From Saprospiraceae bacterium (GTDB lineage Bacteria; Bacteroidota; Bacteroidia; Chitinophagales; Saprospiraceae): 64,000 bases of DNA. Shown piece by piece: positions 9,354-50,339 of the stretch. Positions within the stretch are counted from its first letter, which is position 1. The number at the start of each line of letters is the position of its first letter. The DNA lies in assembly GCA_029212405.1 (NCBI GenBank), contig JARGNR010000022.1, forward strand, positions 1 to 64,000, given 5' to 3'. The notes beneath the pieces are model-generated. The model worked only from the letters and a program-made list of their open reading frames with translations, was not told the DNA's origin and did no database searches. The translations under genes and the position numbers were made by a program.

Positions 9354-9609
9354 TTTATTAAATTGACTGGCTTAAACATAAGCATTAATTTAAATGGGTT
9401 ATAAAGATTGGTAATAAAAGATGAATTGAGATGATTAGAAGACAGTTCAGGTGCTCCGTCTTCTCTTCTATATAAGAACTTACGAATTCTCAATTATGTC
9501 AATCGAATAATAAATCAACTCTGAATAGAGTGGTCTAGAATTTAGTTTTGAAGTAAAATAGTATCTTCAAGATTATCAAACTGGATACGAGAAAAAATTA
9601 GAACATACC

Positions 9610-14023: not shown

Positions 14024-15595
14024 TTAATTGACCAATTCCAATTCTTTTTTCTCGAGATTGGCCTTCAGGATAAATACCTTTTCAGACCCTATCCTTTTAT
14101 TAGGTCCAAAAGAAAGTGGAGGGATGAATCCCGATTGAAAGGAGTTCAAATCTTGAAGTTGAGTGATCAATGAGGTTCTATCCACATCATTTCCTACCAA
14201 TTTGAGGACTTCTGTAAATAAAATAATGGATGACAAACTTTGGATTTGAGCACTTTTGTAGTCCTTGTCCAGATTATAGGCTTTTGCCATACTATAATAT
14301 TTGACCATTGCTTTTTCATTCCGTTCAGATAACCACGTAGGGTATGAAAAGTAAATTTTTTGATTCATCTCCATAGGAGCGTCCAACCACTTACTCGATG
14401 CAAATTTACCTGGAATGAGAATCGTCGGAAACCACTCCAATTGTTGCATAGTATTAAGCATAGATAAATTTGAATTAATGCTACTTAAAAGAAGACAATG
14501 TTTAATTCCTTCAGACTTTAAGTCTATCATTTGATTATAAAAATCGTTGTTGTCTGTTTTGATTTTTTCATAACGAAATTGTTGGTCTACAACTACTTCT
14601 TTTAATTCAATTCCAAGATCAGCCAAAGAATTATCATAAAGGATGATAAAATTCTCTTTACTTACATTAAGATTTTCAATTGAAAAATTTTGTAGCACCT
14701 GAATTTGTTGAATAATTCCTGGAAGTAAGTAATAAAATTCATTTTTCAGATAATCCGTATTTTTAGGATTACCTGATACTGCACCAATAATTGGGATTTT
14801 ACTTTTTTCAATATATTCTACTGAGGATTGAGACAAAGATTCGATATCTGAAGATACAAACGCAAGAGTATTTTCATCAGATAAAAACTTGCTTACCAAA
14901 GAATCTGACTTTTGGGCATTGTTATCCAAAACCAACTCTTTCACTTGAATCTTTCGATTATAAATTCCACCTCCCATATTCACTAAATCTACATATGCTC
15001 TTACAGTATTTATCATGGTTTGAGATCTTCCAGGTGGATGATTATTGGGAGGAACGATCATACCTACCACAATAGATGTATCAGATACTCCTGTAATCGA
15101 TTCGTTGCCAAGGACTTTAAAGTAAGCAATTAAATCCTCGACATCTGAATCACTTAACTCATATCTTGGCATTACTTTATCAATTTCATTTCCACTTGGA
15201 TCTATCCCTTCTTTTATGACTTTACCAATTGTATTCTCAGTGTATGCAATCCGTTTTCTCCCATTTTTAAATTCTATGGTGTAAGATTGCGTTAATGTTG
15301 ACCATCTTACGGGCGTAGGAATTATTCCTCCTTCCGCATTTCCAATTCCTTTTTCACCGTGACAATTTACGCAAGGTAGAATCATGGCATCAAAGTTTGC
15401 TCCAGACATAGATGCTTTAATAGGCGTACCTGATACTCTCTTCCCTTGGGTGTAAATTAATTTACCCCGCTCTTGAGAAGGTGTTAACCCTGCAAAATTT
15501 TGGAAAGCAAAAAATGTACTTGATAGGAAAACTAATGTACAAATACACACAGTAGATCTGATACTCATATTTTTGGGGTTATCATTTGAATACAT
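14024..15595 (-). CDS. Cytochrome c domain fused to periplasmic ligand-binding (type 1 ABC substrate-binding) protein
   Basis: CVNCHG heme motif near N-term, then VGMIVPPNNHPPGRSQTMINTVRAYVDLVNMGGGIYNRKIQV periplasmic binding fold. Confidence 0.85.
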   Translation of the reverse strand: MYSNDNPKNMSIRSTVCICTLVFLSSTFFAFQNFAGLTPSQERGKLIYTQGKRVSGTPIKASMSGANFDAMILPCVNCHGEKGIGNAEGGIIPTPVRWSTLTQSYTIEFKNGRKRIAYTENTIGKVIKEGIDPSGNEIDKVMPRYELSDSDVEDLIAYFKVLGNESITGVSDTSIVVGMIVPPNNHPPGRSQTMINTVRAYVDLVNMGGGIYNRKIQVKELVLDNNAQKSDSLVSKFLSDENTLAFVSSDIESLSQSSVEYIEKSKIPIIGAVSGNPKNTDYLKNEFYYLLPGIIQQIQVLQNFSIENLNVSKENFIILYDNSLADLGIELKEVVVDQQFRYEKIKTDNNDFYNQMIDLKSEGIKHCLLLSSINSNLSMLNTMQQLEWFPTILIPGKFASSKWLDAPMEMNQKIYFSYPTWLSERNEKAMVKYYSMAKAYNLDKDYKSAQIQSLSSIILFTEVLKLVGNDVDRTSLITQLQDLNSFQSGFIPPLSFGPNKRIGSEKVFILKANLEKKELELVN

Positions 15596-15745
15596 TCAAA
15601 ATTAAACAAAAGATTTACATTTACATTGACAGGCTGCTTGATCCATTGAAAAAGATTAGGTGAAATCTCTTTTAATTCATAGAATAAAAAGAAAGGTTAT
15701 TTATTATTCTTATTAATATTGATTCTTAGACATAAAATATACTCA

Positions 15746-16315
15746 ATGCCCAAATATACCATACCTATTCTTCTGGGGACCACTCGGGATAACAATCAAA
15801 GTCAAAAAGTTGTAATTCATCTACAGCAGAAAATTTCGGAATATCAAGAAATCAATTGTCTTATCTTAGACTTGGGGAAAGCAAATTTTCCAATGCTAAC
15901 AGAAAGAGTTACGCCAGAGAATTCTATTTCAGAAATTCTTTCAGATTGGACAGATATTTTGACAAAAGCGCATGGTCTGATTATAGTATCCCCAGAATAT
16001 AAATCTGGCTACCCTGGTTCATTAAAAAACTTTCTAGACTATTTGCCCCCAGGAGTATTTAGGTACAAACCAATTGGAATTAGTACAGTAAGTGCTGGTA
16101 TTTATGCAGGAACTAGTTGTTTGCAACAATTGCGACAAGTAATTATTTCTATGGCAGGACTTGTAATACCAGATCGATTTCAAGTAGGCGATGTTGTCAA
16201 TGAGGTCTCTGTAGATGGAAAAATACGATCACCCCAATTACAAAAGACATCTGATAAATTTGTTTCAGAAATGATAAAATATACGGTTCACATGAGCAAA
16301 ATGCAACATAAATAA
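15746..16315 (+). CDS. NADPH-dependent FMN reductase family protein
   Basis: PILLGTTRDNNQSQKV, SPEYKSGYPGSLKNFLDYLP flavodoxin-like motif; likely start MPKYTIPILL within the ORF. Confidence 0.88.
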   Translation: MPKYTIPILLGTTRDNNQSQKVVIHLQQKISEYQEINCLILDLGKANFPMLTERVTPENSISEILSDWTDILTKAHGLIIVSPEYKSGYPGSLKNFLDYLPPGVFRYKPIGISTVSAGIYAGTSCLQQLRQVIISMAGLVIPDRFQVGDVVNEVSVDGKIRSPQLQKTSDKFVSEMIKYTVHMSKMQHK

Positions 16316-16553: not shown

Positions 16554-18095
16554 ATGAAAAGACGACTTTTCTTAAAAAACAGTAGTGTAGGACTAGGTGG
16601 AATTTTAGCCATGCCAACTGTGCTGTATGGCTGTTCCACAATAAAGCCCATATTACTTGACAGTCCATCCAAATCAATAGGACTCTTTCAAGAAGGTTCC
16701 AGAATGTTTGATTCTTCCATTGTAGAGTTAAGACTTGCTGGAAGTGGAGAATTGGCTGCAGCTGAAGCAGAAGATGCGGATTTGTCAGGAATAGCAGAAC
16801 AAGTAGCAAATAAAACTGCTGCGATACCTGCGGAAGTTGCAGAGGATTTTGCAGAATCTTCTATTCAATTACTTGATGCAGCAAAACAATTAAATGATAA
16901 TTCCTCAGAACTCTTTCCATTAAATGCTGGAACTCAGGCTGAATTGGCAGACGACTTTATTTTATTAAAAGTGGTCAAAGCATCTACTTTATTAGCTAGT
17001 GCTGCAATGGCAACACCTGATCCATTTCAGAAGGTAACTGCAGCTGAAAACATGATTCGCAGCAGTAAATTGGCCTATAAAGGAATGGCTGAGGGTTCTC
17101 AAGCTGAATTAATGCGTGGAACTTCAAATCTACTGGCTCACTCTGAAGAGTATGTTGGTTCAGCAGAGAAATATTCAGCGGAATTAGGATTTATTGACGG
17201 AGTTGAAACTTTTGAGGGCGCTATTGATGTATTTAAATCGGCAGAAGCAGAAACTGCTGAGAATCCAGCTGAAGCTACGGCGGAGTTGACAAACGGAGTA
17301 TCTGAATTATTAACATCGACAGACAATTTAGCTTTAAGTTCTGAATACTATGTCAACGGTGTAAATAATTTAAATGCAGAAAGATATCACTTTAGACATA
17401 AAGGAGCTGAACCTATTATGAACGCTGAAGAGTTATTTCCATATGCTGAAATATTAGTAGAGACAACTCCTCAGTTTTACAATGCCGCACAAGGAGAAGC
17501 TGCTAAAGCAGGTGCTGCTGAAATGATGGATGGAGCTGAATCAATTGAATTTTTTGCAGAAACCAATGGACAAGTAATTAATTTAGGGCTAGGTGGAGAA
17601 ACATTGGATATAGGAGCAGATCGATTTATAAGCGGGTCAATTACTGATTTCGCTGCTGGGGATTATGATGCTAATTCAATGCTCTATTTATTAGCAGCTG
17701 AAGATTTTCAAGACACCAATAATCCTCAAGGAGAAGCAGAATATGTAGAGCAATTGTCTGAAACGCTATATCCAGAATCTGAAAATTTCTATTACGGAGC
17801 TTTATCTCTTCAATCCATTGGATTCCCTGAAGGGGTACAAAGTGTAAAAAATGCAACAGATTATCTTCTTGCAGGTGCACAAATGCTACTAAGTGAAGCG
17901 GATAATCCATTGTCCGCAGAAGGAGCAGAAGAAATGGTAAAAGGAGCTGCTGAAGCATTGAAAGGAGCAGAAGAGGCAGATGACAATCCGACTACGGAGA
18001 ACTTCCACTTAGAGTTGGGTGCTGAGACCATCGAATTTGGAACAAATATGATACAAGAAGGAGCAGCTAAATTTGTAGATGGCTACTTTAAATAA
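16554..18095 (+). CDS. Putative Tat-exported lipoprotein, Ala/Glu-rich, unknown function
   Basis: N-term MKRRLFLKNSSVGLGGILAMPTVLYGC (RRxFLK plus lipobox-like LYGC); about 480 aa of low-complexity helical sequence. Confidence 0.75.
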   Translation: MKRRLFLKNSSVGLGGILAMPTVLYGCSTIKPILLDSPSKSIGLFQEGSRMFDSSIVELRLAGSGELAAAEAEDADLSGIAEQVANKTAAIPAEVAEDFAESSIQLLDAAKQLNDNSSELFPLNAGTQAELADDFILLKVVKASTLLASAAMATPDPFQKVTAAENMIRSSKLAYKGMAEGSQAELMRGTSNLLAHSEEYVGSAEKYSAELGFIDGVETFEGAIDVFKSAEAETAENPAEATAELTNGVSELLTSTDNLALSSEYYVNGVNNLNAERYHFRHKGAEPIMNAEELFPYAEILVETTPQFYNAAQGEAAKAGAAEMMDGAESIEFFAETNGQVINLGLGGETLDIGADRFISGSITDFAAGDYDANSMLYLLAAEDFQDTNNPQGEAEYVEQLSETLYPESENFYYGALSLQSIGFPEGVQSVKNATDYLLAGAQMLLSEADNPLSAEGAEEMVKGAAEALKGAEEADDNPTTENFHLELGAETIEFGTNMIQEGAAKFVDGYFK

Positions 18096-18141: not shown

Positions 18142-19515
18142 TTACTTTTTCTCCCACCTAGATGTAGCGGTATGTAAAAATGCATGTATTATATTGACTG
18201 CATCTTCTCTCATTAGTCTACCCTCTCGTAGATAAGAAGCGACCCCGTCACACACTATGCTTAGCTTACTGTTATATAAATTGGCTTTAAATCCCCAAAA
18301 CTCAGTTTCATTTCCCCATAATTCATAAGGCACGGCTAATTCAGGAATAGGTTGTGTGTAGCTCTCAAAATCTGGCCAAATAGATCCACCCCAGCGCATC
18401 AATTTATCTGTTACCAAACTAAGAATTGGATTTTTGAACTTTTCTTTTACACAAAAAGATCCAAAATCAATAACCACTGCACGCCAAGGATCTCTGCCAA
18501 ACTCTCTGGTATGTTGAATATTTACCCCTTCGAAAATAAGTCGATCCTCTTTAATTCTGCTTACTTCCTCAATGTTTTTCAATTGCTCTTCATTCAAACT
18601 ATTGACATGTTTGCCTCCATAAGTCAATTTTAATTTGCCCTTATCTTTCCAAAGTCGAACTTCTGTTACATAATTACAAGATGTGATCCCATATCTTCTC
18701 AAGAGCAATTCTACCTCAATGTGTAGCAGTTGCATATCCGTTTTGAAAGCTGGTAATCCACCAGGATTCTCCGGTCTACGTTGCGCTCTTCTTACCAACA
18801 ATCCAGCCGGTCCAGCAATCCCTCCCGTATTTTTCACATCAAAGTCTAATTTTATAATTGCATATGTGGGTAATGTTTCAAAATTGGAACCACTATGTCG
18901 AAAAGCTGCTTCCACCAATTGTTGATATATATACTCTCTAAATGCCTCTGCCAATGTAAGAAGTCCATTTCCGTGATCATAAAAATGATGTTCTTTCCCC
19001 TCTTCCAGTCCAGTGCCTTTTACATCTATCAACCCATCTTCGTAGCCCATTTCTTCTGCATCAATATTAAGGCCTTTATAATTATTCAATAAAGAAAAGA
19101 CTAGAGCTCTACCATAAAGTACTGGGCGAAAAGCTTCCACTTTTTCTCCAGTAGTTGGAATTTTTGTATTGACGTATTCCTGTTTTGTTTGATTTTCCGA
19201 TACATAACACGTATGTCTGATCAACCACTCATCAATGAGATCTCTAATTATCAATTTTTTTGCCTTACCCTTGACTACTTTTAACTCTGGGTGTAGCTTT
19301 TCAAGATTCTCCAACTTCAAACAAGGAAAATCATGTTGAAGAAGCTCGTAATTTGCCATAATCACTTCTGCACCAGAAGTAGCTATTACCGTCTCTTTTT
19401 TTACCTCTCCTTGTTCCAAATCCTTTATAGACTTTAATATCGGCCCTTTCGAAAATTTTGGGTCGGGTGTAAAATCCACCAATTGAGGAGGTAATTTTAA
19501 ATCAAGTGTAGACAT
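18142..19515 (-). CDS. Divergent SelO/YdiU-like pseudokinase-fold protein (tentative)
   Basis: LIDVKGTGL..HGNGLLTLAEAFREYI..LPTYAIIKL..GPAGLLVRRAQRRP and VVIDFGSF resemble SelO [50 protein letters not shown] and DYGPFGF. Confidence 0.5.
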   Translation of the reverse strand: MSTLDLKLPPQLVDFTPDPKFSKGPILKSIKDLEQGEVKKETVIATSGAEVIMANYELLQHDFPCLKLENLEKLHPELKVVKGKAKKLIIRDLIDEWLIRHTCYVSENQTKQEYVNTKIPTTGEKVEAFRPVLYGRALVFSLLNNYKGLNIDAEEMGYEDGLIDVKGTGLEEGKEHHFYDHGNGLLTLAEAFREYIYQQLVEAAFRHSGSNFETLPTYAIIKLDFDVKNTGGIAGPAGLLVRRAQRRPENPGGLPAFKTDMQLLHIEVELLLRRYGITSCNYVTEVRLWKDKGKLKLTYGGKHVNSLNEEQLKNIEEVSRIKEDRLIFEGVNIQHTREFGRDPWRAVVIDFGSFCVKEKFKNPILSLVTDKLMRWGGSIWPDFESYTQPIPELAVPYELWGNETEFWGFKANLYNSKLSIVCDGVASYLREGRLMREDAVNIIHAFLHTATSRWEKK

Positions 19516-24995: not shown

Positions 24996-25946
24996 CTATA
25001 GATATTGATTTAATGTAGGGCATTTACCCAATTCATATTCATATTGACTTACATAACTTTTTGCCATATCGAGATAATGAAAATTGTTAATCGCATACGC
25101 TCTGCATTTCTTTGACTGTATTGAATCAACTTGCTCAAGGGCCTGCAGGTAATCATCTTCATTATTACAAATAAAACCAACATCTTCATTTAGCAATTCA
25201 GGACAAGCCCCATTTGATGTCGAAATTACGGGCGTACCAGACATCAATGATTCTAAAATCACTAATGGACACGCTTCATTGTATCTTGAAGGAAAGAGTA
25301 CAGCTTTTGCTCCAGCAAATAATTCTGCTTTTTGCTTCCCATAGACAGGTCCACAAAATTCAGCATTTCTACTATTACACAACCTTCTAAATTGTTCTAT
25401 TTCATTTTCATCTTGACTGCTTCCAGCTATTTTTAATTTTATTCCAGATTTTTCAGCGATTACAAATGCCCTTTCCAGGCCTTTCATCTTTGCTCTGGCC
25501 AATCCCCCAACAATGAAAAATAAGTAATCACTTTTCACATCAGAGTAAATAAACTCATCTGGATCTATCCCATTGAGCGCAAACCTATCCGACCCATATA
25601 GTTGGGCTAGGGTTTTGGAAACATAAATCCAGTTTGGTTTCTTAATATCTAACGGGTAACCTTTAATTCGCACATCACAATGAATTGATCTTACCCAAGG
25701 AACATCAATATCTAGGTTAGCATCGAGTTCGCCTTCATTGATTTGATAAATATCTGCCCCCTTTATTCTAGAAGGAGTATACTTCACCCCTTCCGGAAGA
25801 GCTACTTCAGGAGCTTCCTTTAAATGATAAAAGACGTCATGTCCCAACTCTACCAATCCTTTGACAATGTTATCATGTACCGAATGCGATGCTACTCCGT
25901 ACAGGCTACCTGGATACTTGTGATACGATGTAAAACATATTTTCAT
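24996..25946 (-). CDS. Glycosyltransferase (GT4-like)
   Basis: VLFPSRYNEACPLVILESLMSGTPVISTSNGACPELL. Confidence 0.88.
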   Translation of the reverse strand: MKICFTSYHKYPGSLYGVASHSVHDNIVKGLVELGHDVFYHLKEAPEVALPEGVKYTPSRIKGADIYQINEGELDANLDIDVPWVRSIHCDVRIKGYPLDIKKPNWIYVSKTLAQLYGSDRFALNGIDPDEFIYSDVKSDYLFFIVGGLARAKMKGLERAFVIAEKSGIKLKIAGSSQDENEIEQFRRLCNSRNAEFCGPVYGKQKAELFAGAKAVLFPSRYNEACPLVILESLMSGTPVISTSNGACPELLNEDVGFICNNEDDYLQALEQVDSIQSKKCRAYAINNFHYLDMAKSYVSQYEYELGKCPTLNQYL

Positions 25947-27052
25947 TCTGCTAAATTCGACTTTAAGAGTAAACTTTCTTTTTCTCTAACAAGAGGCAAT
26001 ACATTCTTTCCAAAATATATCATTTCGCTTTGTTTGGGCCAACCAGAAAAAATAAAATGAGTGACACCTGCTGCCTTGTATTCCATTATGGCATCGGATA
26101 ATTCGTCAGGTGTGCCTACCATTGCTATAGTTGGAGCACCAAATGTTTTTACTGCACCGGTCCACAACCATGGAGTGAGCCATTCTTTTTCTGATATGGC
26201 ATACATCTTTTTCATCATGGTTGAATCACTTTTAAGGACAAATTTATTCTCCTTATTTGCTTCTTTTAAGTTGGCATCTACATTATTAATCAGTGCATTT
26301 GCAGCTTCAATAGCCTCTCGTTTTGTATCTCTACAAATAATTGCTAAACGCAAACCAAGTTCCTTTCCAGCCAACAGTACCTCTGCTCCTTCCGATTTCA
26401 CTCTTTCAGGCAAGTCTGGTAACCTCATCCAACAATCCCCTTGGCTAATAGCCAACTCCTTTGCTTTATTTGAGCTCCCTGCAATGAAAATAAAAGGTGC
26501 TTGTCTGTCCGTACTTAGATAAGGAGTTCTCAAGCGACCATTGTGGATAGTATAGTGTTCCCCTTCAAAATTGACTGGGCCCTTCTTGTTCCAAAAAGAC
26601 CTACATACATCCAGGAACTCCTCCGTTCTTTCATATCTCTGATCATGCGCTAGTAAATCTCCATAAAATGCATTTTCATCAGGAGAATGTCCAGCCACAA
26701 TATTTATCAACAGTCTCCCTTTATGAAGAGCTGAAAATGTATTCACCTGTTGTACGAAGTAAGTAGGACTGATCATTCCAGATCTAATTGCCACTAAAAA
26801 CTTCATTTTTTCTGTCTGAGGAATGATACTGCTTGCCAATAATAACGGATCAGGTTTTCCATAACTTATATCGGTCAATAATGACTCAATTCCAGCTTGT
26901 TCTGCTAAACGGCTAAAAGAAGCTTGAACATTAAGATCAGGTAGGGCTACAGAATTGAGTTCAAGTTGTCTTGCCCTACTTAAACCACCATTTTCACCCC
27001 CTTGAATAAGGCGCCAATGAAATTGAATACTTTTCTGGTTTGATCTCATCAT
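25943..27052 (-). CDS. LLM-class flavin-dependent oxidoreductase (SsuD-like)
   Basis: GRLLINIVAGHSPDENAFYGDLLAHDQRYERTEEFLDVCRSFW; FIAGSSNKAKELA. Confidence 0.92.
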   Translation of the reverse strand: MMRSNQKSIQFHWRLIQGGENGGLSRARQLELNSVALPDLNVQASFSRLAEQAGIESLLTDISYGKPDPLLLASSIIPQTEKMKFLVAIRSGMISPTYFVQQVNTFSALHKGRLLINIVAGHSPDENAFYGDLLAHDQRYERTEEFLDVCRSFWNKKGPVNFEGEHYTIHNGRLRTPYLSTDRQAPFIFIAGSSNKAKELAISQGDCWMRLPDLPERVKSEGAEVLLAGKELGLRLAIICRDTKREAIEAANALINNVDANLKEANKENKFVLKSDSTMMKKMYAISEKEWLTPWLWTGAVKTFGAPTIAMVGTPDELSDAIMEYKAAGVTHFIFSGWPKQSEMIYFGKNVLPLVREKESLLLKSNLAE

Positions 27053-27086: not shown

Positions 27087-28163
27087 ATTCATGTATGCTT
27101 CTTTCTCTCGTACCTGTGGAAGTACACCTTTAGAAAAATGTATCATTTCTTCTTCATCTGGCCAACCCATAAATAAAAATTGAGAAACACCTATCTCTCG
27201 ATATTCTATAATTGCATTAGCCACTTCTTCGTAAGACCCCACTAGAGAGATAGAAGGAGCACCAAGGTAAGGAACAGCACCTACCCACAAATATGAGGTG
27301 AGCCAATCTTCCTCCTTTTCGCCAATTTCAAGTATAGAGTTAAACGCTTCCGAAACCGAGTTTTTAACAAATTCCTTATGCGCTTTTAGTGAGGACTCTC
27401 CCAATGGTTGTATAAGATTGTAGGCTGCTAAAACCGCTTCTTCTCGGGTTTCTCTGGTAATCAATGAAACCAATAATCCCACCTCAGTTCCTGTTGATAA
27501 AAGATGTTTAATTTTGGGAGCCATGTCTGCTGGTGCATCTGGTAAGGTAAGCAAACATGTTGCATGCTTTTCTGCCAATTCAAATGCGCGCTTGGATTTA
27601 CCACCCAAATAAATTTCAGGATAGTCACTTTTATCGGATACAAATGGGGTATTCAACCTACCATTTTCTACAGAATAGTATTTACCTGAATAATTTACTG
27701 GTTGGTCTCCTTGCCAAAATTGGTGACAGATGGTCAAAAATTCATCTGTACGATCATATCTTTTCAGAGGGTCTAAATGGTCTCCATAGTACTTAAACTC
27801 TTTTGGTGAATGACCAGCCACCACATTAATACAAATTCTCCCATTAGATATAGCGGAAACTGAATTCACTTGTTGTACAAAAAGTGTGGGAGATGCAACA
27901 CCTGATCTACAAGCCACTAAAAAATTGATATCTGAAGTTTTCATGGCTAATGCGGCAGCCAAGGCAATGGGATCAATTCGATGAAAGCCAAAAGCAGTCA
28001 ACACATGTTCAATTCCACACCTTGATGCTAATTTACAGAAGGCTACATGTTGCTCAATATCAGGAATTCCGGACACTTGATCTCTGGCTTTAGATCCTTT
28101 CAACTTCTCACCTACAGATGACATACTCCAATGAAACCTAAGCCTGTTCTCCATATTATGCAA
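27054..28163 (-). CDS. LLM-class flavin-dependent oxidoreductase (SsuD-like), paralogue
   Basis: GRICINVVAGHSPKEFKYYGDHLDPLKRYDRTDEFLTICHQFW. Confidence 0.92.
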   Translation of the reverse strand: MHNMENRLRFHWSMSSVGEKLKGSKARDQVSGIPDIEQHVAFCKLASRCGIEHVLTAFGFHRIDPIALAAALAMKTSDINFLVACRSGVASPTLFVQQVNSVSAISNGRICINVVAGHSPKEFKYYGDHLDPLKRYDRTDEFLTICHQFWQGDQPVNYSGKYYSVENGRLNTPFVSDKSDYPEIYLGGKSKRAFELAEKHATCLLTLPDAPADMAPKIKHLLSTGTEVGLLVSLITRETREEAVLAAYNLIQPLGESSLKAHKEFVKNSVSEAFNSILEIGEKEEDWLTSYLWVGAVPYLGAPSISLVGSYEEVANAIIEYREIGVSQFLFMGWPDEEEMIHFSKGVLPQVREKEAYMNIENGKLKTEN

Positions 28164-29664
28164 TTTTTATCAACTTTGTCTCTAATGCATTTTCAATCAT
28201 TGAGTCTAACATTTTTGCACAAAGTTTATAGGTATTTACATCTTGAGAATGTGGGACTGGAAGTGTATTTTCAGGATCCATGCATACTATTTTCAATGTT
28301 GCCGCTGGAAACTTTTTAATGATATTTTTCTTGTGTGTTTCTGTTATGCAAAAAATAACATTCGCCTTTCTTATCATTTCTAGAGTAAGTTTTTTAGACG
28401 TATGCTCCAAACTAAGAACGTCAAATTCTTCCAGCGCTTTTTTTGCACCATTGGATAAAGGCATTCCAATTTTTGGGTCTATACCCGCACTGGAAACTTG
28501 AATTGTATTGGATTGAATATTTTCTCTTGATAGAATATCTCTAATTCTTTTTCTACATATTTTCTCTGCCATAGGTGATCGCCCCGTATTGCCCGGACAT
28601 ACAAAAAGGTAGGCTTTGTTTTCATTTGCAATTCCAACTATATTGTTCCATCCAAAACGATTTGCCAAGGCCGGATAAGCCAAAAATAATGTAGCTAGTA
28701 TAAGAATGACCGAGCTCAACAATTGAATACCATTGACAAAACTTTCTCCTGTTATCCATCCCAGGACAAGAGAAGCAACTACACCAGCTAGTAGACTTGA
28801 ACATCTGTTGATGGGAATACAAAATGTATTTTCTCTATAATTCAGATATATTCTACTTCCAAAGACATACAAACAAGCGTATAATGATCCTATTATAAAT
28901 GCTGGAATAACCAAAGGAGTCATCGTAAATTCCACAAAACCTAAATAGAGATCTTGACCAATACTCCCAAAACCAATTATCGCTAGCAGTAAAGGAAGCA
29001 AGACAATAGTATACATGGCTATGTACATTTCTTCTGCAAAGAACCTATAGTTGGTTTCTTTATCTCCATCTTTTGCAATTTTGGTCATAAACTGCAATCT
29101 GAACACATATCCCAATAAATAAAATCCAATATTCAATCCCGCGATCATTGTCAGGGTATATCCTCCCTTATCTGAAAAGATTAAAAGTAGGGCAAACAAA
29201 CTCAAAATAAGTGCCGCAATAGAATACCAGTTAACCTTTCTTCGGTAGCCCAAATCAACTAAAGGGGCCATGAGCAATACCCCACCTCGCATTAATAATG
29301 CAGCAAAGACAATGGAAATTCCAACAAAGCTGTACGCCAACGTGGTGGTCATAATAATAAATGCAGTAGCGATACCTGAAAACAGGGTCCATTTATTTGT
29401 TGAAAAAGGGATGTTTTTTCCGAAGATGGTCTTGTGTCCTGCAAATTTATCCCATCCAGTATAGTGCGCAATTATGGCTAAGGTAATGAAGGTGGCAATA
29501 ACAACACTTGGAAGCATCTGAAACCCTGAGATTACTGTTCCAGTTTCAGAAAACAGCCCTTTTGAAAGTGCTTTTGTCATTGCTCCATATGGAACATAAA
29601 ACCCAAAATAACCGAGGGCGAGCATCCATATAGATAGGTTTTTTGATTTACTAAGCGATTTCAT
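28156..29664 (-). CDS. Multi-TM (DMT-like) membrane protein fused to low-molecular-weight protein tyrosine phosphatase-like domain
   Basis: About 10 hydrophobic segments in first 340 aa; then YLFVCPGNTGRSPMAEKI (CX5RS) LMW-PTP signature. Confidence 0.85.
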   Translation of the reverse strand: MKSLSKSKNLSIWMLALGYFGFYVPYGAMTKALSKGLFSETGTVISGFQMLPSVVIATFITLAIIAHYTGWDKFAGHKTIFGKNIPFSTNKWTLFSGIATAFIIMTTTLAYSFVGISIVFAALLMRGGVLLMAPLVDLGYRRKVNWYSIAALILSLFALLLIFSDKGGYTLTMIAGLNIGFYLLGYVFRLQFMTKIAKDGDKETNYRFFAEEMYIAMYTIVLLPLLLAIIGFGSIGQDLYLGFVEFTMTPLVIPAFIIGSLYACLYVFGSRIYLNYRENTFCIPINRCSSLLAGVVASLVLGWITGESFVNGIQLLSSVILILATLFLAYPALANRFGWNNIVGIANENKAYLFVCPGNTGRSPMAEKICRKRIRDILSRENIQSNTIQVSSAGIDPKIGMPLSNGAKKALEEFDVLSLEHTSKKLTLEMIRKANVIFCITETHKKNIIKKFPAATLKIVCMDPENTLPVPHSQDVNTYKLCAKMLDSMIENALETKLIKIA

Positions 29665-30908
29665 GACTTAGAATGAATTTTGGGGTTAAAAAGTATGTTG
29701 TTCTTGTGGTTTTCTGTTTTTTCACCATTAAAAAATGAAACATCATGCAACTCTCCCAAGATTGATTTCCCAATAGTAGAAAGTACTTGGTCATGATTAT
29801 CATGTCTGGTATAAAAAGATATGTCTCTGTGTATTCGTTCTAGCGGACTGGGTTTAATCATCGAACGAGCTCCACAAACATGTATGGCGTGTTGAATTAC
29901 TTCAGTAGTCAACTTTTCTATAAAATATCGAGCACAGTTGCTTGCAAGTTCTGCTTGTTCTATCTCTCCTGATCCCCAATGATTAGATGTCTTTTCCAAC
30001 CATAAGTTGCAGGTATCAATATGCATAGCCATATGAGCAATCCTGTGTTGAACGTAAGGATCAGATTCACGATTTTGCTTTTTCACATAGTTCAGTGCAT
30101 ATTCAAAAGCAGCTTCTGCCCCACCTAAAAATGTAGCTGCATATTGAGGAGTAATTTTAACTTGCCACTTCTCTTTTAAATATTGTCCTGGATACCCCAT
30201 GAGGTTTTCTCTAGGAATAAAAGTTTCATTGAATCGAACCAAATAACTGACTGAAGCCTTCATACCAATAGGCTTCCACCAAGAATCGTCAAATTCAATA
30301 CTTGAATCAGATAAATCACACGCCAACATTATGACATCTGAATCTCCTGAATTATGTCTTGCACCTCCTGGACCAGTCGGACTTACAAAAAGAATGGACC
30401 AATTGGCTCCAGGCGCACTGGTACAGAATATTTTTGTCCCGCTTACTATGTATCCATTCTCAACTTCTTGTATTTGTGTACCAAAACTCATTTTTTGCCC
30501 TGGCTTTTTCACTTGTGGCTCTCCACTCCAAGCTGTCCAAATATCTCCCTTCTCTTTAATGCCTCTGAACCATCTTTTTTTCTGATCTTCATTGGCTATC
30601 TTATCAATTAATAAAACAGCATTAGAGTGACCTTCCCAGCAACGCGCAAAAGCCATATCTGCCTTAGCAAACTCCTTAGTAATTTGCCATTGAGTATTTA
30701 TATTTCCAACCGAATGATTGATACCTTCTCCTCCAAATTCCTGACCTGCTAGTACGGCTAAAAAACTTGCCTCTTTTAAATCATCAAAATTCTGTTTTGG
30801 AAATGCAGCTTTTTCATCATGCATTTCTGCACGAGAGAAAAATTTCTCTTTCGCCAAAGATTTAGCTCTAGCAATGAGGTCATTATGTTGATGAATACTT
30901 TTAATCAT
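29661..30908 (-). CDS. Acyl-CoA dehydrogenase-like flavoprotein
   Basis: AVLAGQEFGGEGI, VSGTKIFCTSAPGANW, FLGGAEAAFEYALNYVKKQNRES, ACAD helical C-domain. Confidence 0.85.
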   Translation of the reverse strand: MIKSIHQHNDLIARAKSLAKEKFFSRAEMHDEKAAFPKQNFDDLKEASFLAVLAGQEFGGEGINHSVGNINTQWQITKEFAKADMAFARCWEGHSNAVLLIDKIANEDQKKRWFRGIKEKGDIWTAWSGEPQVKKPGQKMSFGTQIQEVENGYIVSGTKIFCTSAPGANWSILFVSPTGPGGARHNSGDSDVIMLACDLSDSSIEFDDSWWKPIGMKASVSYLVRFNETFIPRENLMGYPGQYLKEKWQVKITPQYAATFLGGAEAAFEYALNYVKKQNRESDPYVQHRIAHMAMHIDTCNLWLEKTSNHWGSGEIEQAELASNCARYFIEKLTTEVIQHAIHVCGARSMIKPSPLERIHRDISFYTRHDNHDQVLSTIGKSILGELHDVSFFNGEKTENHKNNILFNPKIHSKS

Positions 30909-31258
30909 TTTAATTTATAGAAAAATTCTCTGACAAATAAATTATTATCCGAGTCCGAATTCATTTTAATATAGGTAGCAATGATAATGAGTCCCTTATT
31001 CACATTTCCAGCAAAAAAGCATTCTCTATCGCCCAACTTAACGGATGAATCAAATGCAATACATTGATCACTTTCTGCTGAAGCTGTATAAATGTGTGCT
31101 TTTAAATCATTTATTGATTCCGGTAATAAACCATCCTTAACTCCTTGAATCTTGATAAAAAGGCTGTTATTTATTTCTTCTAGTGTGAATCCCGCGATTC
31201 CAATCGTATTTGATTTTGAGTTTTTCCACGTTCCTGTCACTTGACCAGTTGATATCAT
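30905..31258 (-). CDS. Small lipocalin-like/beta-barrel protein (start likely 31258)
   Basis: GTWKNSKSNTIGIAGFTLEEINNSLFIKIQG aligns with the neighbouring gene product; internal ATG avoids a 20-nt overlap. Confidence 0.6.
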   Translation of the reverse strand: MISTGQVTGTWKNSKSNTIGIAGFTLEEINNSLFIKIQGVKDGLLPESINDLKAHIYTASAESDQCIAFDSSVKLGDRECFFAGNVNKGLIIIATYIKMNSDSDNNLFVREFFYKLK

Positions 31259-31286
31259 TATTATTTCTTTTTTTTGTTGAAAGGGA

Positions 31287-31718
31287 TTAAGACTGAGAAG
31301 GGCCATAAAACTCCCTCGTATAATAATTTAGCCTACCACTTCCATCATTGAATTTTGTGTACGTCTGAATAACCAAAACACCAAGTTTTACATTTGCTGT
31401 TATATCTACGTCTATTTGATCAAAATTAAAACCAGTAATAAACGCTATAGAAGTACCATCATGCGGATTTTCTGTAAATACTTCACATTCCGATTCCCCC
31501 CAGTCTATCAGTCCATTTAGATCTGCGCCATAGACCTTTAAATACAATTTATTATCGGACTCTCTCAGTTCAACTTGGGGCAATTGTCCAGAGTTCTCCT
31601 TTGTATTTGTCCAAGCCCCTAAAAAAGGCGAAAGATTCAGCTTTTGAATATCAGTACCTTCGTGAATTAGATCGTCTTTCTTTGTATAAATATTATTTCC
31701 AGAAGTTTTAACTATCAT
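31287..31718 (-). CDS. Small lipocalin-like/beta-barrel protein, paralogue
   Basis: GAWTNTKENSGQLPQVELRESDNKLYLKVYG. Confidence 0.6.
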   Translation of the reverse strand: MIVKTSGNNIYTKKDDLIHEGTDIQKLNLSPFLGAWTNTKENSGQLPQVELRESDNKLYLKVYGADLNGLIDWGESECEVFTENPHDGTSIAFITGFNFDQIDVDITANVKLGVLVIQTYTKFNDGSGRLNYYTREFYGPSQS

Positions 31719-31756: not shown

Positions 31757-33280
31757 TTAATCCAATTTAAGAAGATTTTCCGTTTTCTCTCTAATTACCA
31801 TTTCTACTTCGAATGGCATTTCTTCACCAGTCAATCCAGTAAACTGTTTTTTTACTTGATGCAGTAAAATTTCTTTTCCTTCAATGATTCTTTTTCCATT
31901 CTTTCTGCAATGAGCTACAAGTTGTGTATCCTTTTTTGCATACGCCATGTCTATAGCAATACTGTTTTGTGTCATCCGTGCAGGATCGAATATTAACTTC
32001 ATTCCTTTTTTTCCAACTGGCGTAGCATTGATAATAATATCAAAGTTTTCAGCCTCAAATTTTTCAATCAAATGAAAAGGTAAATTAAGCAACTTTGAAG
32101 CAAGAATGCCTCTATTTTCAGACCTATTAAATAAATGTATTTCTGCATTTTTATTAGATATTCTTGCAGCTATTGTTCTCCCTGCTCCTCCACAACCTAT
32201 AATGGCTACTTTTAAACCATTCAAATCGATTCCAATTTCCTCCAAAGCAGCAAGAACACCTAAACCGTCAGAAGAATCAGAATACCATTTACCTTCTTTA
32301 TTTATAAGTATGTTGCACGCCTTGGACACTGTTGTTGGCTGACATAAGTGACCAGAAGCAGACTGAAAAGTTTTTTCTTTGTAAGGGGATACCATCGTAA
32401 ATCCACCCAAAGTCAAATCAAGCTCAGCAGCTTCAAAATCCACCGAAATAAATCTCCAGAATTCATCAAAATCATCTATCTGAAATGGAAGATAGAGTGC
32501 TTCCAACCCTAAAGAAGTATAACTTTTATTATGAATTAAGGGTGACATAGAAGTGAAAACTGGATTACCAGCTATCCCAAATATCTGTTGAATAACTCTA
32601 GTTTGATCAATTGAATAATCTGTGGTCAATTGTTCTAAGCTTAAAAATACATCATCTTCTTTGTCTGTTTCCCTTACCGCGTAAATCATTGCACTTCCCA
32701 TGAATGCAGCTAGTATCTGAGTCCAAACCCCAACCGCACTACTTGCAAAAGAAATAATGTCTTTCCGACCAAAATTCTTTACTATTTTTAGTGGCCATAA
32801 TCCTTGAGATATGCTATTCGGGTTCAGAATCAATTGATAAAAACGAGCTTCATAGGTTAACAACTTTTGCATCTTACATTCTAATTCCTCATAACTCTGT
32901 GCATATCCTTGCCATGAAATCAATCTTTTATTTGGAACAATTTGATTAAGAATTTCTGGAGTCAAATCAGTCTCTGCCTCTAACTCAATAAGATCAAATT
33001 GGTTGAGCGCATTTATAATAATCCGATGTCTTTCTTGAAGCGAACCTATAAATTGTCCTCCTTCTCTTTTACTTTTTAATGATAATATCCTCAGTTCATT
33101 GGACAGTTCGATTTGGTTTACATCCTCGATATGATTGAAACAATCTGCTCTAACCACCACTGCTTTTGCAGATATGATATCATAACTTTCACCACTTGAC
33201 GAAGGTGCGTTGAAAAGATTAAGTGCTACAATCGGATTTCCATGTATTATCCTATTACTCATTAGCGCATTTTTCATCAT
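31757..33280 (-). CDS. Type I 3-dehydroquinate dehydratase-like domain + shikimate dehydrogenase (AroD-AroE fusion)
   Basis: N: LRILSLKSKREGG; C: NPVFTSMSPLIHN, GFTMVSPYKEK, SDGLGVLAALEE, IIGCGGAGRTI, GKEILLHQVKKQFTGLTG. Confidence 0.88.
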   Translation of the reverse strand: MMKNALMSNRIIHGNPIVALNLFNAPSSSGESYDIISAKAVVVRADCFNHIEDVNQIELSNELRILSLKSKREGGQFIGSLQERHRIIINALNQFDLIELEAETDLTPEILNQIVPNKRLISWQGYAQSYEELECKMQKLLTYEARFYQLILNPNSISQGLWPLKIVKNFGRKDIISFASSAVGVWTQILAAFMGSAMIYAVRETDKEDDVFLSLEQLTTDYSIDQTRVIQQIFGIAGNPVFTSMSPLIHNKSYTSLGLEALYLPFQIDDFDEFWRFISVDFEAAELDLTLGGFTMVSPYKEKTFQSASGHLCQPTTVSKACNILINKEGKWYSDSSDGLGVLAALEEIGIDLNGLKVAIIGCGGAGRTIAARISNKNAEIHLFNRSENRGILASKLLNLPFHLIEKFEAENFDIIINATPVGKKGMKLIFDPARMTQNSIAIDMAYAKKDTQLVAHCRKNGKRIIEGKEILLHQVKKQFTGLTGEEMPFEVEMVIREKTENLLKLD

Positions 33281-33746
33281 TCCCTAATACTTCCAAATAT
33301 GCTAGTAAATAGTCCATATCTTTTAAGCTCATAGTGTACTTTGGCATCATACTCTTTACTTTTTTGCCATCATGGTTTATACCCAGAGTAATCAGTCGTT
33401 TAATTTTTTTATTCATCTCTTTCTCACTCAGAATCTTATTTGTACCCATTGAATATCGCATAAGATAGCTTGCTCTTCGAATATCAGGAACGATCATACC
33501 TTGTGCTTCTCCTCCTTTTCCACATTGGCCATGACAAGAAGCACACGTAACGATCGACGCAGGTATACTCCGTCCCATAGAAACGGCTTCTATTTTAAGT
33601 TCTGTGGAACCAATACCTTCCATATAAATTTTTTCCCCTTTTAGAATCGATTCGTTTTGGTAAGAAATAGAATTAGTTTCAAACTTTGAGGGTAGATACA
33701 AAGAAAAAGTAAGAATTATTAATATTGTTGTATTTGGGATACTCAT
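33255..33746 (-). CDS. Secreted monoheme cytochrome c
   Basis: Signal peptide; CASCHG; MPKYTMSLKDMDYLLAYLEVLGN. Confidence 0.88.
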   Translation of the reverse strand: MSIPNTTILIILTFSLYLPSKFETNSISYQNESILKGEKIYMEGIGSTELKIEAVSMGRSIPASIVTCASCHGQCGKGGEAQGMIVPDIRRASYLMRYSMGTNKILSEKEMNKKIKRLITLGINHDGKKVKSMMPKYTMSLKDMDYLLAYLEVLGNDEKCANE

Positions 33747-33771: not shown

Positions 33772-34890
33772 TTAATCAGATTCACCTGTATCATAAACAA
33801 CACTGTCTAACACTTTTATAATTTCGGCAGAACTAGCTAAACCATTTGCCTTTTTCCATAATTTGGTATTCATATTCCCTATTAATAAAATGGTGTCATG
33901 CTGTTCTCTTGACTCTACATATTTACCCAATTTCTTCATTACAGCATTAACATTGCCAACTGATCCAGATAAAAAATGCCATCCAGGTTTTGCATCATAC
34001 GAGGCGGCGTAGTCTTTTAATTTGTCAGGAGTGTCATTTATTGGATCTACTGTTATTGAAAGTAAAAGTACAGAAGATCCTAATTTATCCCCGAGATGCT
34101 TTTGCACATCCTTCATCATGGTATGCATAATTGGACAGGATCCTGGACAATCTGCAAAAAATGGGTTAATAAATACAATTTTATCCTTGAGGAGGTCTGA
34201 ATAGAATCTAAATTTTTCACCATGTTGATTAATCAATTCCAAATCAGAAAAATATCCTAAGTCCGCTTTATTATTAGATTCTTCAATGGCTTCATCTAAA
34301 TATTCTATCACCTTTTCTGCTAAAATATCTGGGCTTGCCAATCCATTAGTTCTAATCCAATTATCATTACTTGCATTCCCCATTATGATAATAGGTGCAT
34401 GCTCATCAATTAAGGGAGTAAATACATCCAAGTCTTTTAATAATTGATCTACGGTGGTCTTCTTACCAGTAAGAAGGGTCCATAGTTGATCATCACCATC
34501 ATCAAATTTATTTTTCCAAGCATTTAATCTTTCAGGTGTATCCGTTGAAGGATCAATACTTATAGACAACATAACCATATTCTCATTTACTCTATCACCA
34601 AGTTTCTTCTTTAGCGCAACAAAATTGGCACCCATTGGAGGACAGATCGTTTTACAGGTAGTGAACATAAAATTCATTACAACAACTTTATCTTTTATCA
34701 CTTCATTTAGGCGCACATTATTGCCTTCATGGTCCGTCAAATCATAGTCAGAAGTCAATACTTTATGAATACTCAATTGACTATCTCCTTCTACTTTTTT
34801 GGATTTTTCACAGCATGCTTGAGTCCATGCATTGGCAGAAATAAAACAACCAATTACTACAATTAATATTTTTAAATTCAAACTTTTCAT
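33772..34890 (-). CDS. Tandem-domain SCO1/SenC family protein
   Basis: Two CXXXC thioredoxin-like units: TTCKTICPPMG and DCPGSCPIMH, each with SISIDP/SITVDP-D-TP motif. Confidence 0.9.
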   Translation of the reverse strand: MKSLNLKILIVVIGCFISANAWTQACCEKSKKVEGDSQLSIHKVLTSDYDLTDHEGNNVRLNEVIKDKVVVMNFMFTTCKTICPPMGANFVALKKKLGDRVNENMVMLSISIDPSTDTPERLNAWKNKFDDGDDQLWTLLTGKKTTVDQLLKDLDVFTPLIDEHAPIIIMGNASNDNWIRTNGLASPDILAEKVIEYLDEAIEESNNKADLGYFSDLELINQHGEKFRFYSDLLKDKIVFINPFFADCPGSCPIMHTMMKDVQKHLGDKLGSSVLLLSITVDPINDTPDKLKDYAASYDAKPGWHFLSGSVGNVNAVMKKLGKYVESREQHDTILLIGNMNTKLWKKANGLASSAEIIKVLDSVVYDTGESD

Positions 34891-34938: not shown

Positions 34939-36909
34939 TCATATTACTTTGACCAAAAGATATTGCGGATTATTAAAAGGCAAATCTTTAGACAGGCATT
35001 CCACGTATAAATAGTAGACACCCGATTCATCAAATTTCAAATTGTATTTATACACACCTGGAACTCCTGACTCTGTAGCCTGTCCTTCATGAAACCAATT
35101 TCCAGAAGAAGTACCTCGAATTCGTACATCTTGTAAACCAGTTATCGGTTCATTTTTTATTGGATCAAACAGTACAAACATCATATTATACGAATCTCCA
35201 GACTTAACCACTTGTTCTTCTTTCACATGATGCACTGCAATAGATCCCAATTCTGCTTTTAATTGCTCTTTAATAGATTCTTCATTGGGCTTGACGCCAA
35301 CTGAAAAACAGTGCAATAATCGAGGCACATCCACAAAAAAGGGAATATCATAATTGCCGTATCCTCTAATTTTTGCCACAGTTTCATAGACTCCAGGCCT
35401 GCGTTCTTCGAGACTTCTATCTATTACTTCCACGGCTCTAGGCGTTTTATTATAGTTGGAGAAATTCCCCATAGGAGCAGCCATCCCTTCCATATAATAA
35501 TAAATAGTTTTATCCAAGTTATTTGAAATCAACATCGCATTTGCCCCTGGTGCCTGTACCATCAATTCTCCTTTCGAAGGATTATCTATTTTACCTGGTG
35601 GATATTGTCCCCCAGGAAAATCAGCTGCTTGCAATCGTTGTCCTTCCAGTCCGATAACCTCCAAAGGAAACATCAAAATGGTTTCACTTTCTTCATGCAA
35701 AACATACGCCAGTTCGTCTGAAAATGAAACTTCAATAGGTTTCTCTTCTGTTGTTCCATTTTGTACAATCCTATTGCTGGCTGCGTCCAAAATCTGAACA
35801 ATTGATTCTTCTTTCCCAAGTATAAACCCAAATCTCCCCGATGGATCAAATTTTATAGAACTGATTCCAGTTTTTCCTTGGACGATCGAGACTACCTCTA
35901 GTGATTTGCCGTCAATTCCAGTAATATTACCACTGTCTTTGTCAATTACATACAATACATCTGCCATGGATGACCAAGCCATTGAAGTTATGGGACCTCC
36001 AATAGGAATATCTTTCACTTTTTTCAATGAAGCAATATCAATAATGGAGACCGTTTGATCAATGTTATTACTCACAAATACATATGTATTGTCATCACTT
36101 ATTACTATTTGATGTTCTCCTTTACCAGTTGAAATAGAAGCTTTCACTTCATTGTTTTCTGTAGAAATGGCAGCAACCCCAGAATAATTCTCAATTCTTC
36201 GAGAATCAAAATCAGCCCATAAATACGCTTCGTCTGGTTGTAGACATACATTATTAACTATAGCATTTAATTCAATATTTTTCTCTACTTCCCAATTCGA
36301 TGTATTTACAACGGCAATTTTCTCGGATTTAGGCATCGATACATAGACGTTCAATTGATCTTTGGATACTACCCAATCTTCAGGAGTACCATCTAATTGA
36401 ACATAGGCCAAAAGCTGTGATCCTCCAAAACTAAACAATGGGTCCACCACCGAAATACTAGCATCGTCATTCATCACCAATACATAAAAAATATTCAAAT
36501 CCAGTTCAGCTCTTTTAAAAAGAGTACCAGATAGAAATGCACTTATTTTTTGTCCACATTCCGCATTTTGATCCTCGGCATCCACCATAGGTTCCATCCA
36601 TGCTGCTGGAGCCGCACCTGTCACTGCTTTTTTAGATAATGTATCTGTAATTTCAAATCTAAAAAGTACGTCATCATCCTGCGTAAATATCTTTGGATCT
36701 TTTGATTTGTCAATATGATTTAGGCTAAACGTAACTTGTATGCCTTCATGAATGATAGATTGAGAATATACATCATCTTCATTTGCAATCGTTTGACTTG
36801 TTCCTATCAATGGGAGAGTTAATAAAACAATACCAATACAAAACAACATTAAAGGTCTCACTAAGAGACCTTTAATGTTAATTTCCAAAATTTCTTTCAA
36901 CTCTATCAT
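34939..36909 (-). CDS. YVTN-type beta-propeller protein, secreted
   Basis: Repeats such as YVFVSNNIDQTVSIIDIASLKKVKDIPIG, VLYVIDKDSGNITGIDGKSLEVVS; possible alternative start 36849. Confidence 0.8.
   Translation of the reverse strand: MIELKEILEINIKGLLVRPLMLFCIGIVLLTLPLIGTSQTIANEDDVYSQSIIHEGIQVTFSLNHIDKSKDPKIFTQDDDVLFRFEITDTLSKKAVTGAAPAAWMEPMVDAEDQNAECGQKISAFLSGTLFKRAELDLNIFYVLVMNDDASISVVDPLFSFGGSQLLAYVQLDGTPEDWVVSKDQLNVYVSMPKSEKIAVVNTSNWEVEKNIELNAIVNNVCLQPDEAYLWADFDSRRIENYSGVAAISTENNEVKASISTGKGEHQIVISDDNTYVFVSNNIDQTVSIIDIASLKKVKDIPIGGPITSMAWSSMADVLYVIDKDSGNITGIDGKSLEVVSIVQGKTGISSIKFDPSGRFGFILGKEESIVQILDAASNRIVQNGTTEEKPIEVSFSDELAYVLHEESETILMFPLEVIGLEGQRLQAADFPGGQYPPGKIDNPSKGELMVQAPGANAMLISNNLDKTIYYYMEGMAAPMGNFSNYNKTPRAVEVIDRSLEERRPGVYETVAKIRGYGNYDIPFFVDVPRLLHCFSVGVKPNEESIKEQLKAELGSIAVHHVKEEQVVKSGDSYNMMFVLFDPIKNEPITGLQDVRIRGTSSGNWFHEGQATESGVPGVYKYNLKFDESGVYYLYVECLSKDLPFNNPQYLLVKVI
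36845..36879. promoter_or_regulatory. Perfect 15-bp inverted repeat at 5' end of propeller gene
   Basis: AACATTAAAGGTCTC (36845-36859) / ACTAA / GAGACCTTTAATGTT (36865-36879). Confidence 0.7.
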
Positions 36910-42747: not shown

Positions 42748-43049
42748 TTTATTGGGGTTTATTATAAAATATCCAAAAACAATGGGTCTAAAATAATAAA
42801 TATCAATAATAAATAAGAAAATACAACGCAATAATCAAGAACACTAATCTTACCTTCCTAAGTAAAACTTTATTCACCATTTTAACACCACACCCCGAAA
42901 TATAATAAATATAAATCGATTAATCCCCCTATTGAATCAATTATAATTGAATTACAGGTATAAATACGTATGAAAATGGCCTATTAAAATAGTCTTGGAA
43001 ACTTAATTGAATGGGAATGTATGTACAATTTATATAATACGAATTTCCA

Positions 43050-45056: not shown

Positions 45057-45824
45057 ATGTCTTTAGCCCCAAGAGCATTCAACAGAAATATTTTCAGCAA
45101 CAGAGAACAAGTCTACTATGGCACAGATGATGGCAGTAGAGATGGGTCATTTGGAGAATTCAAAGCCATCACTGAACACTATACTAATGTTTCAGCTGAC
45201 CGAAAAGAAGATATCCATATGATCAGTGTAATTGGTGGATTATATGGTCTCAACCTCATTCACCTTTGGAAGCCCAAAAAGATTACCTTTTTTGACATTA
45301 ATCCGCTAGCCATAATTTATTTTAATCTAATTCTTCATGTATGGACAACCAGTGATTCCCCTGAACACTTTTTGGAACGACTGACCAATGGAGATTATGA
45401 AGCGACTACCGAAGATGAAATTTTTATAAAAGAAAACATTCAAATTGTACAAAAGACAGGCACTATTTCTGCAGACAGAGGAGCATTCAGCTCTCATGAC
45501 AGAGATTTAGAGAATAGTTGGAGATTGGCTCTAGAAAATTTTGATGAAACAAAAAAGTATCTGCTAGAAGCTGAAATTACTATTCGGACAGAGCCCATGG
45601 AAGGGGAAAATTTTAAGGAGATGATACGATCCAAGTCTCATCACTGGATTTATGCGTCCAACATTACCCAGTTTCATTTTTTTGAATTAGAAATACTAGA
45701 GCCTAGTAATGTTGTGCTATTGCAAATTCATCATGAAGATGCTCAATTATTGGACTTGGCAGAATACGCAGGAAAGCCCGTTATTGTAAAATTTGAATAT
45801 CCAATTCGCGTTGAAACGAAGTAA
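45057..45824 (+). CDS. Unknown protein with Rossmann/SAM-like segment; paralogue of 49584..50339
   Basis: HMISVIGGLYGLNLIHLWKPKKITFFDINPLAI; strongly similar to second copy in window. Confidence 0.7.
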   Translation: MSLAPRAFNRNIFSNREQVYYGTDDGSRDGSFGEFKAITEHYTNVSADRKEDIHMISVIGGLYGLNLIHLWKPKKITFFDINPLAIIYFNLILHVWTTSDSPEHFLERLTNGDYEATTEDEIFIKENIQIVQKTGTISADRGAFSSHDRDLENSWRLALENFDETKKYLLEAEITIRTEPMEGENFKEMIRSKSHHWIYASNITQFHFFELEILEPSNVVLLQIHHEDAQLLDLAEYAGKPVIVKFEYPIRVETK

Positions 45825-49583: not shown

Positions 49584-50339
49584 ATGGCACAAGCCCCAAG
49601 AGCATTTAACAGAGGCCTTCATTCCAATAGGAACCAGGTATTTTATGGAACAGATGATGGGAGCCAAGATGGTTCTTTCGGAGAATTTCCTGACTTCATC
49701 AAACACTACGAAAGTGTGGATCAATCCAGAAAAGACGACATTCATATGATCAGTGTTGTCGGAGGTTTATATGGCTTAAATATGATTCCACTATGGAAAC
49801 CAAAAAAACTAACCATATTTGATATCAACCCAATGGGTGTGGTTTATTTCACCTTGATCCATAGAGTTTGGACAACTAGTAATAGCGCCCAGCATTTTCT
49901 TGATCGATTAGAGAATATGGATTACGATGCGAATACAGAAGATGAAAAATTTGTTCAAGAAAATATCAGTTTAAAGGCAAAAGGAACCCTACCTCGTTCC
50001 AGAGGATCAAGCAAACGATCGTTCTACGATAGCTGGAAGTATGCACTTGATAATTTTGAGATCACCAAACAGATTTTATTAGGTCCATTAGAAATCCGGA
50101 CAGAGCCAATGGAAAGTGAAAGTTTTAGTGCAATGATTCGAAATCAAAACAATTCTTGGATCTACGCATCAAATATTACACAGTTTCATTTTTTCGATTT
50201 GGAATTTGAAGATCCTTCTAATTGTGTAATGTTACAAATTATACATCCTGAACAACCTCAATTATTGGATATTTCTGAATATGCTGGACAGAAAGTAAAG
50301 GTGAAATTTGAAATACCAATGCGTGTGGAGATTATATAG
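49584..50339 (+). CDS. Unknown protein with Rossmann/SAM-like segment; paralogue of 45057..45824
   Basis: MAQAPRAFNRGLHSNRNQVFYGTDDGSQDGSFGEF; HMISVVGGLYGLNMIPLWKPKKLTIFDINPMG. Confidence 0.7.
   Translation: MAQAPRAFNRGLHSNRNQVFYGTDDGSQDGSFGEFPDFIKHYESVDQSRKDDIHMISVVGGLYGLNMIPLWKPKKLTIFDINPMGVVYFTLIHRVWTTSNSAQHFLDRLENMDYDANTEDEKFVQENISLKAKGTLPRSRGSSKRSFYDSWKYALDNFEITKQILLGPLEIRTEPMESESFSAMIRNQNNSWIYASNITQFHFFDLEFEDPSNCVMLQIIHPEQPQLLDISEYAGQKVKVKFEIPMRVEII

Follow-up and report, generated by a model that had tools for sequence, protein, structure and literature searches.

A dehydroquinate dehydratase–shikimate dehydrogenase fusion with a probably inactive dehydratase half in a conserved operon of two Chitinophagales lineages

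The window, that is, the whole stretch of DNA analysed here, comprises 64,000 nucleotides of contig JARGNR010000022.1 from a Saprospiraceae bacterium. From position 42831 down to position 18142, all the main genes are co-directional and many of them overlap by a few bases, with overlaps of 4-8 bases at several operon junctions. Within this series lies a gene for an AroDE-like protein, in which a type I dehydroquinate dehydratase (DHQase)-like half precedes a shikimate dehydrogenase (SDH)-like half (Table 1). The downstream end of the operon holds 457- and 513-aa proteins without a Pfam match (18142-19515 and 16554-18095), and matches to promoters and terminators in the window are at chance level only. 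Elsewhere in the window, a 1338-aa secreted protein (50439-54455) with many short NTAIGxxAL-type repeats resembles a trimeric autotransporter head, and the neighbourhood of two paralogous proteins of 255 and 251 aa without a Pfam match (45057-45824 and 49584-50339) includes genes for a sulfotransferase and two PhyH dioxygenases.

Table 1. The AroDE-like gene and its operon neighbours, with positions counted in the window; G046 is a genome from another family of Chitinophagales.
Feature	Position	Strand	Basis
MnxG-like giant multicopper oxidase, 1966 aa	36931..42831	-	NF041487, 1043.7 bits, under the equivalog cut-off of 3100; 50-60% orthologue in G046
Secreted beta-propeller protein	34939..36909	-	49% orthologue in G046
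Tandem SCO1/SenC protein	33772..34890	-	PF02630; 55% orthologue in G046
Cytochrome c	33255..33746	-	PF00034
AroDE-like fusion protein, 507 aa (P0001)	31757..33280	-	Open reading frame without internal stop
Type I DHQase-like N-terminal half, about residues 1-225, catalytic residues lost	32606..33280	-	PF01487 and alignment
Q124 codon, at the catalytic His143 position	32909..32911	-	MAFFT alignment
Q149 codon, at the Schiff-base Lys170 position	32834..32836	-	MAFFT and 2GPT profile alignments
Q188 codon, at the substrate Arg213 position	32717..32719	-	MAFFT and 2GPT profile alignments
SDH-like C-terminal half, residues 231-507, catalytic residues kept	31757..32590	-	PF08501, TIGR00507 and alignment
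K301 codon, equivalent to E. coli AroE catalytic Lys65	32378..32380	-	MAFFT alignment
D338 codon, equivalent to E. coli AroE Asp102	32267..32269	-	MAFFT alignment
S1, 143 aa, predicted 8-strand beta-barrel protein	31287..31718	-	Adjoins the AroDE-like gene in G046 too; homologues on cyanobacterial plasmids
S2, paralogue of S1	30905..31306	-
Acyl-CoA-dehydrogenase-type (ACAD) flavoenzyme, SfnB/DszC-like	29661..30908	-
Predicted multi-TM domain (DMT-like, by inspection) fused to a low-molecular-weight phosphatase domain	28156..29664	-	PF01451, 54.5 bits; 50% orthologue in G046
LLM_A, SsuD-like flavin monooxygenase without the SsuD sulfonate-site residues	27054..28163	-
LLM_B, second SsuD-like flavin monooxygenase	25943..27052	-

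The initial annotation had described this protein as a fusion of the two shikimate pathway domains, and profile searches bear this out, with matches to both halves in one open frame. By profile, the N-terminal half belongs to the AroD fold family (PF01487 on residues 37-207, 50.5 bits, cut-off 22.2) and falls outside the AroD equivalog (TIGR01093, 31.8 bits, cut-off 139.3). The C-terminal half matches the shikimate dehydrogenase N-domain (PF08501 on residues 236-323, 36.9 bits, cut-off 27) and, over residues 233-494, the aroE equivalog TIGR00507, whose score of 163.8 bits stays below the cut-off of 200.2. The bifunctional AroDE equivalog PRK09310 reaches 126.3 bits against a cut-off of 598. 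An AlphaFold model of the fusion, built from an alignment of two rows, has a mean pLDDT of 44.5, which is too low for any structural claim.

MAFFT was used to align both halves with E. coli AroD and AroE (sequences from NC_000913, whose numbering is used for both enzymes), archaeal AroD and AroE, and three canonical Bacteroidota DHQase-SDH fusions drawn from aroB-aroDE-aroA loci (L056-L058). All canonical references retain the DHQase residues E46, R48, R82, E86, H143, K170, R213 and Q236. These columns read V, R, K, E, Q, Q, Q and F, respectively, in the window protein, where S232 is changed as well, to E. The Schiff-base lysine, the catalytic histidine and the substrate arginine are therefore all replaced by glutamine, as had been proposed by eye. 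The motif LKSKREGG, described at the same time as kept, is so for E86; its R82 is a lysine. A profile built from the window and G046 proteins aligns end to end with the plant DHQase-SDH from Arabidopsis (PDB 2GPT; E=5e-38, profile positions 41-501), and its columns for the plant Lys and Arg agree with those of the MAFFT alignment. No replacement was found in the half, where all the lysines (K3, 39, 69, 71, 118, 136, 139, 165, 168, 173 and 207) lie outside the Schiff-base column and all the histidines (H13, 50 and 85) outside the catalytic His column. The alignments thus confirm a DHQase/SDH fusion in which the substitutions read by eye hold.

The ordinary shikimate pathway is encoded elsewhere in the 6.8-Mb genome of this bacterium. 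The fusion is its sole type I DHQase match, and a separate type II DHQase (AroQ) with normal motifs is present, together with a standalone AroE, which groups with the AroE of its family in the SDH tree, and one AroB, beyond which a search of the genome for a second DHQ-synthase-like cyclase found none. The search for a second dehydratase and dehydrogenase suggested by the initial annotation thus has a positive answer, and a type II AroQ is likewise carried by G046. Since AroQ, the standalone AroE and AroB are all present, the fusion is an extra gene, dispensable for chorismate synthesis. With the Lys, the His and the substrate Arg gone and these enzymes encoded elsewhere, the predicted loss of DHQase catalysis is upheld, and it is well supported at the level of sequence that the N-terminal half would no longer be catalytic.

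The SDH half, on the contrary, retains S14, S16, K65, N86, D102, Y215 and Q244 of E. coli AroE, as well as the nucleotide-binding loop (GxGGxG as GCGGAG) and an NADP-type NRS..R loop. This agrees with the earlier view that the catalytic Lys and the NAD(P) loop are kept, which had missed two changes, N59T and T61V (T295 and V297 of the fusion), common to the window protein and its relative. In the work of PMC2789096, the Thr equivalent to E. coli T61 touches shikimate at its C3 hydroxyl, and acid-base catalysis is performed by the Lys. The best reading of this half is a functional NADP-type dehydrogenase, as judged from its residues, which may act on a quinate- or shikimate-like substrate. A change of substrate is suggested by the two altered residues, the sub-cut-off scores and the genomic context. 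It seems unlikely, though worth weighing, that this half instead performs ordinary shikimate dehydrogenation, or the oxidation of dehydroshikimate (for example, to a phenol), as a second AroE feeding the operon. Such a role would suit the seven of nine substrate and catalytic residues that are canonical, the best solved relatives, which are shikimate dehydrogenases and the plant DHQase-SDH, and perhaps the multicopper oxidase of the operon, for which a phenolic product would be fitting. It is at odds with the aroE score (163.8 against 200.2 bits) and the far lower bifunctional score (126 against 598), with the valine that both members have in place of the Thr contacting the C3 hydroxyl, and with the housekeeping AroE already in the genome.

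The AroDE-like protein is rare. Orthologues were found in two of 399 sampled genomes of Chitinophagales, namely that of the window and G046, where the protein (contig JANQFB010000338) has 508 aa and is 35% identical. A search of 60 relatives of G046 found no further orthologue. A scan of a contig collection with the window protein alone gave no match. With the two-row alignment, the scan recovered G046 again, along with a contig from an archaeon whose aroD and aroE are ordinary, separate genes. Such scans start from short peptide seeds, and distant members can escape them. In the SDH-domain tree, the window and G046 proteins form one clade (100/99), outside the clade of standalone Bacteroidota AroE (100/99) and apart from the canonical fusions (98/95). 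The deeper placement is unsure because of long branches.

The two members differ in how their halves have been conserved. The substrate and catalytic columns of the SDH half, which include the non-canonical T59 and V61, are identical in nine of nine cases against a background of 36% (hypergeometric P = 8e-5, in a test that is thin for a family of two known members), and selection has therefore clearly held the SDH site. This retention, together with the open 507-aa frame, the tight operon and the same operon position in another family, whose protein is 35% identical, makes it very hard to regard the gene as a decaying, functionless relic of a bifunctional AroDE, a notion to which the strong divergence of the DHQase half would lend itself. 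In that half, a single one of nine aligned active-site columns is identical (background 28%, P(<=1) = 0.22, which alone is not significant), and the two-member comparison gives no sign of selection on the DHQase site.

The DHQase half of G046 keeps E46, R48, R82 and K170 in the MAFFT alignment and shows R213D, E86L and a gap at Q236; its catalytic His is possibly kept, in a column made ambiguous by a one-residue gap. Since K170, E46, R82 and possibly the His persist there, the family is not uniformly stripped of DHQase residues. This could mean that the family has a barrel with another Schiff-base reaction, kept or newly gained, which was lost only in the window member. Such a reaction would draw on the K170 and possible His of G046, where R213, E86 and Q236 are nonetheless lost; it is a quite improbable reading, given that a Lys is missing from the site and its vicinity in the window member and that the other barrel sites are not conserved between the two members.

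The claim that the AroDE-like gene stands within a cluster proves stronger than when it was made, as 11 genes are found in the same order in the window and in G046: multicopper oxidase, propeller, SCO, cytochrome c, AroDE, S1, S2, ACAD, DMT/phosphatase, LLM_A and LLM_B. In G046, contig ends cut the oxidase (C130 and C303) and the propeller (C303, then C437), and their place in the order is deduced from the break points of the two genes. The cytochrome of the operon is a lone domain in the window; in G046 it carries a fused periplasmic binding domain, as does the window protein at 14024-15595. This combination of cytochrome c with Peripla_BP_6, seen at 14024-15595 of the window and at 8725-10332 of locus L037, is unusual. 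The fusion of the DMT-like and phosphatase domains, which has an intact CX5R motif, was found only in the window genome and G046. The operon has three enzymes of the flavin monooxygenase type. A sulfonate-utilisation operon, considered on account of the SsuD/SfnB-like enzymes and an FMN reductase, is disfavoured: the LLM proteins lack C54, H228, R297 and Y331 of SsuD (numbered without the start Met), its sulfonate-site residues, and cleavage of alkanesulfonates by the operon is therefore unlikely.

S1 and S2 are homologous small proteins (123-143 aa) that match nothing in Pfam or NCBIfam. An AlphaFold model of an S protein shows an 8-strand barrel with a mean pLDDT of 78.6, whose Foldseek matches are avidin/lipocalin-like but weak, all with E above 0.001. 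Relatives of these proteins occur in another phylum. A plasmid of the cyanobacterium Gloeothece PCC 7822 carries four tandem S proteins near an ACAD (55% identical) and an LLM enzyme (44%), and the same region encodes an FMN reductase (38% to the gene at 15719-16315 of the window), a multicopper oxidase and a glycosyltransferase (44%); no AroDE is annotated there. In the search of plasmids with the ACAD, identity falls from 55% to 28%, which marks a distinct group, and among 398 sampled genomes of the phylum the operon-type ACAD was found only in that of the window. Because the Gloeothece region shares S proteins, ACAD, LLM, FMN reductase and multicopper oxidase, the oxidative cassette is common to two phyla, with the AroDE-like protein so far in two Chitinophagales only. 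Besides this region, a plasmid of Nostoc UHCC 0926 carries two tandem S proteins beside octopine-dehydrogenase-like and nitrogenase-like genes. On a plasmid of Pseudoalteromonas xiamenensis (L071, 14004-15083), an LLM enzyme 39% identical is clustered with three ATP-grasp proteins, a DUF6421 protein and a DAHP synthase/chorismate mutase, possibly as an uncharacterised natural-product cluster.

Among known systems, a close parallel in the barrel is Aro1 from Candida albicans, a pentafunctional AROM protein. Its type I DHQase domain, with the His changed to Gln and no usable Lys, has no activity and joins in dimerisation, and it coexists with a type II DHQase, Dqd1; in the Candida species examined, the type II enzyme is present wherever the catalytic dyad is mutated (PMC9074039). 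An inactive DHQase domain in a fusion, with a type II enzyme as its backup, is thus already known, and the window protein repeats this arrangement at the sequence level. Contrary to Aro1, whose SDH domain is an essential housekeeping enzyme, the window genome has a standalone AroE, and the fusion is a two-domain bacterial protein in a non-shikimate operon rather than a five-domain one. The canonical DHQase-SDH proteins (PRK09310, Arabidopsis 2GPT and the Bacteroidota fusions) share its domain order and align over the full length, but keep all DHQase catalytic residues, the Bacteroidota ones in aroB-aroDE-aroA loci. YdiB, a quinate/shikimate dehydrogenase, and other SDH paralogues have the same SDH fold, the Lys/Asp pair and altered substrate residues; they have no fused DHQase barrel, and the residues at 59 and 61 are G and S. 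A search of the open-access literature for a dead bacterial AroDE found none.

A further parallel is offered by the fungal repressors QutR, Qa-1S and GaaX, proteins with DHQase and SDH domains derived from shikimate enzymes, whose enzymatic role is believed to be lost (PMC6528562). Following this example, and considering that R48 and E86 are kept in the window protein, the DHQase half could be a ligand sensor and the whole protein a regulator or an allosteric enzyme. This seems improbable, however, as SDH catalytic residues intact and identical in both members would not be expected of a pure regulator, the shikimate-kinase-like third domain of the repressors is missing, and the gene lies inside an enzyme operon.

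The interpretation favoured here, with some reserve, is that of a rare, diverged DHQase-SDH paralogue that would combine a dead structural barrel with a working SDH half of altered substrate, in the oxidative pathway of the operon. The DHQase half would not dehydrate dehydroquinate, in vitro either, and would be retained as a structural barrel, probably for dimerisation or docking; assembly is its likely role because the inactive DHQase domain of C. albicans Aro1 mediates the dimer (PMC9074039). The SDH half would be an NADP-type dehydrogenase or reductase of a shikimate-like hydroxy or keto compound, probably not shikimate itself, and would perform one step of a single oxidative pathway encoded by the conserved 11 genes. 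A fuller version of this proposal is put forward tentatively: the dehydrogenase would be neofunctionalised and the barrel repurposed, and the protein would belong to an undescribed 11-gene oxidative pathway of two Chitinophagales lineages that is partly present on a cyanobacterial plasmid.

For annotators, the AroDE-like gene is a warning, as it is not to be labelled bifunctional aroDE. If the favoured interpretation is true, it would parallel in bacteria what is known from fungi, where a fused DHQase dies when its step comes to be covered by a type II enzyme, with the loss seen at two stages: the Lys kept in the G046 member and lost in the window member. The operon has no described product and recurs in part in cyanobacteria, and the substrate of the dehydrogenase would provide a handle on its pathway.
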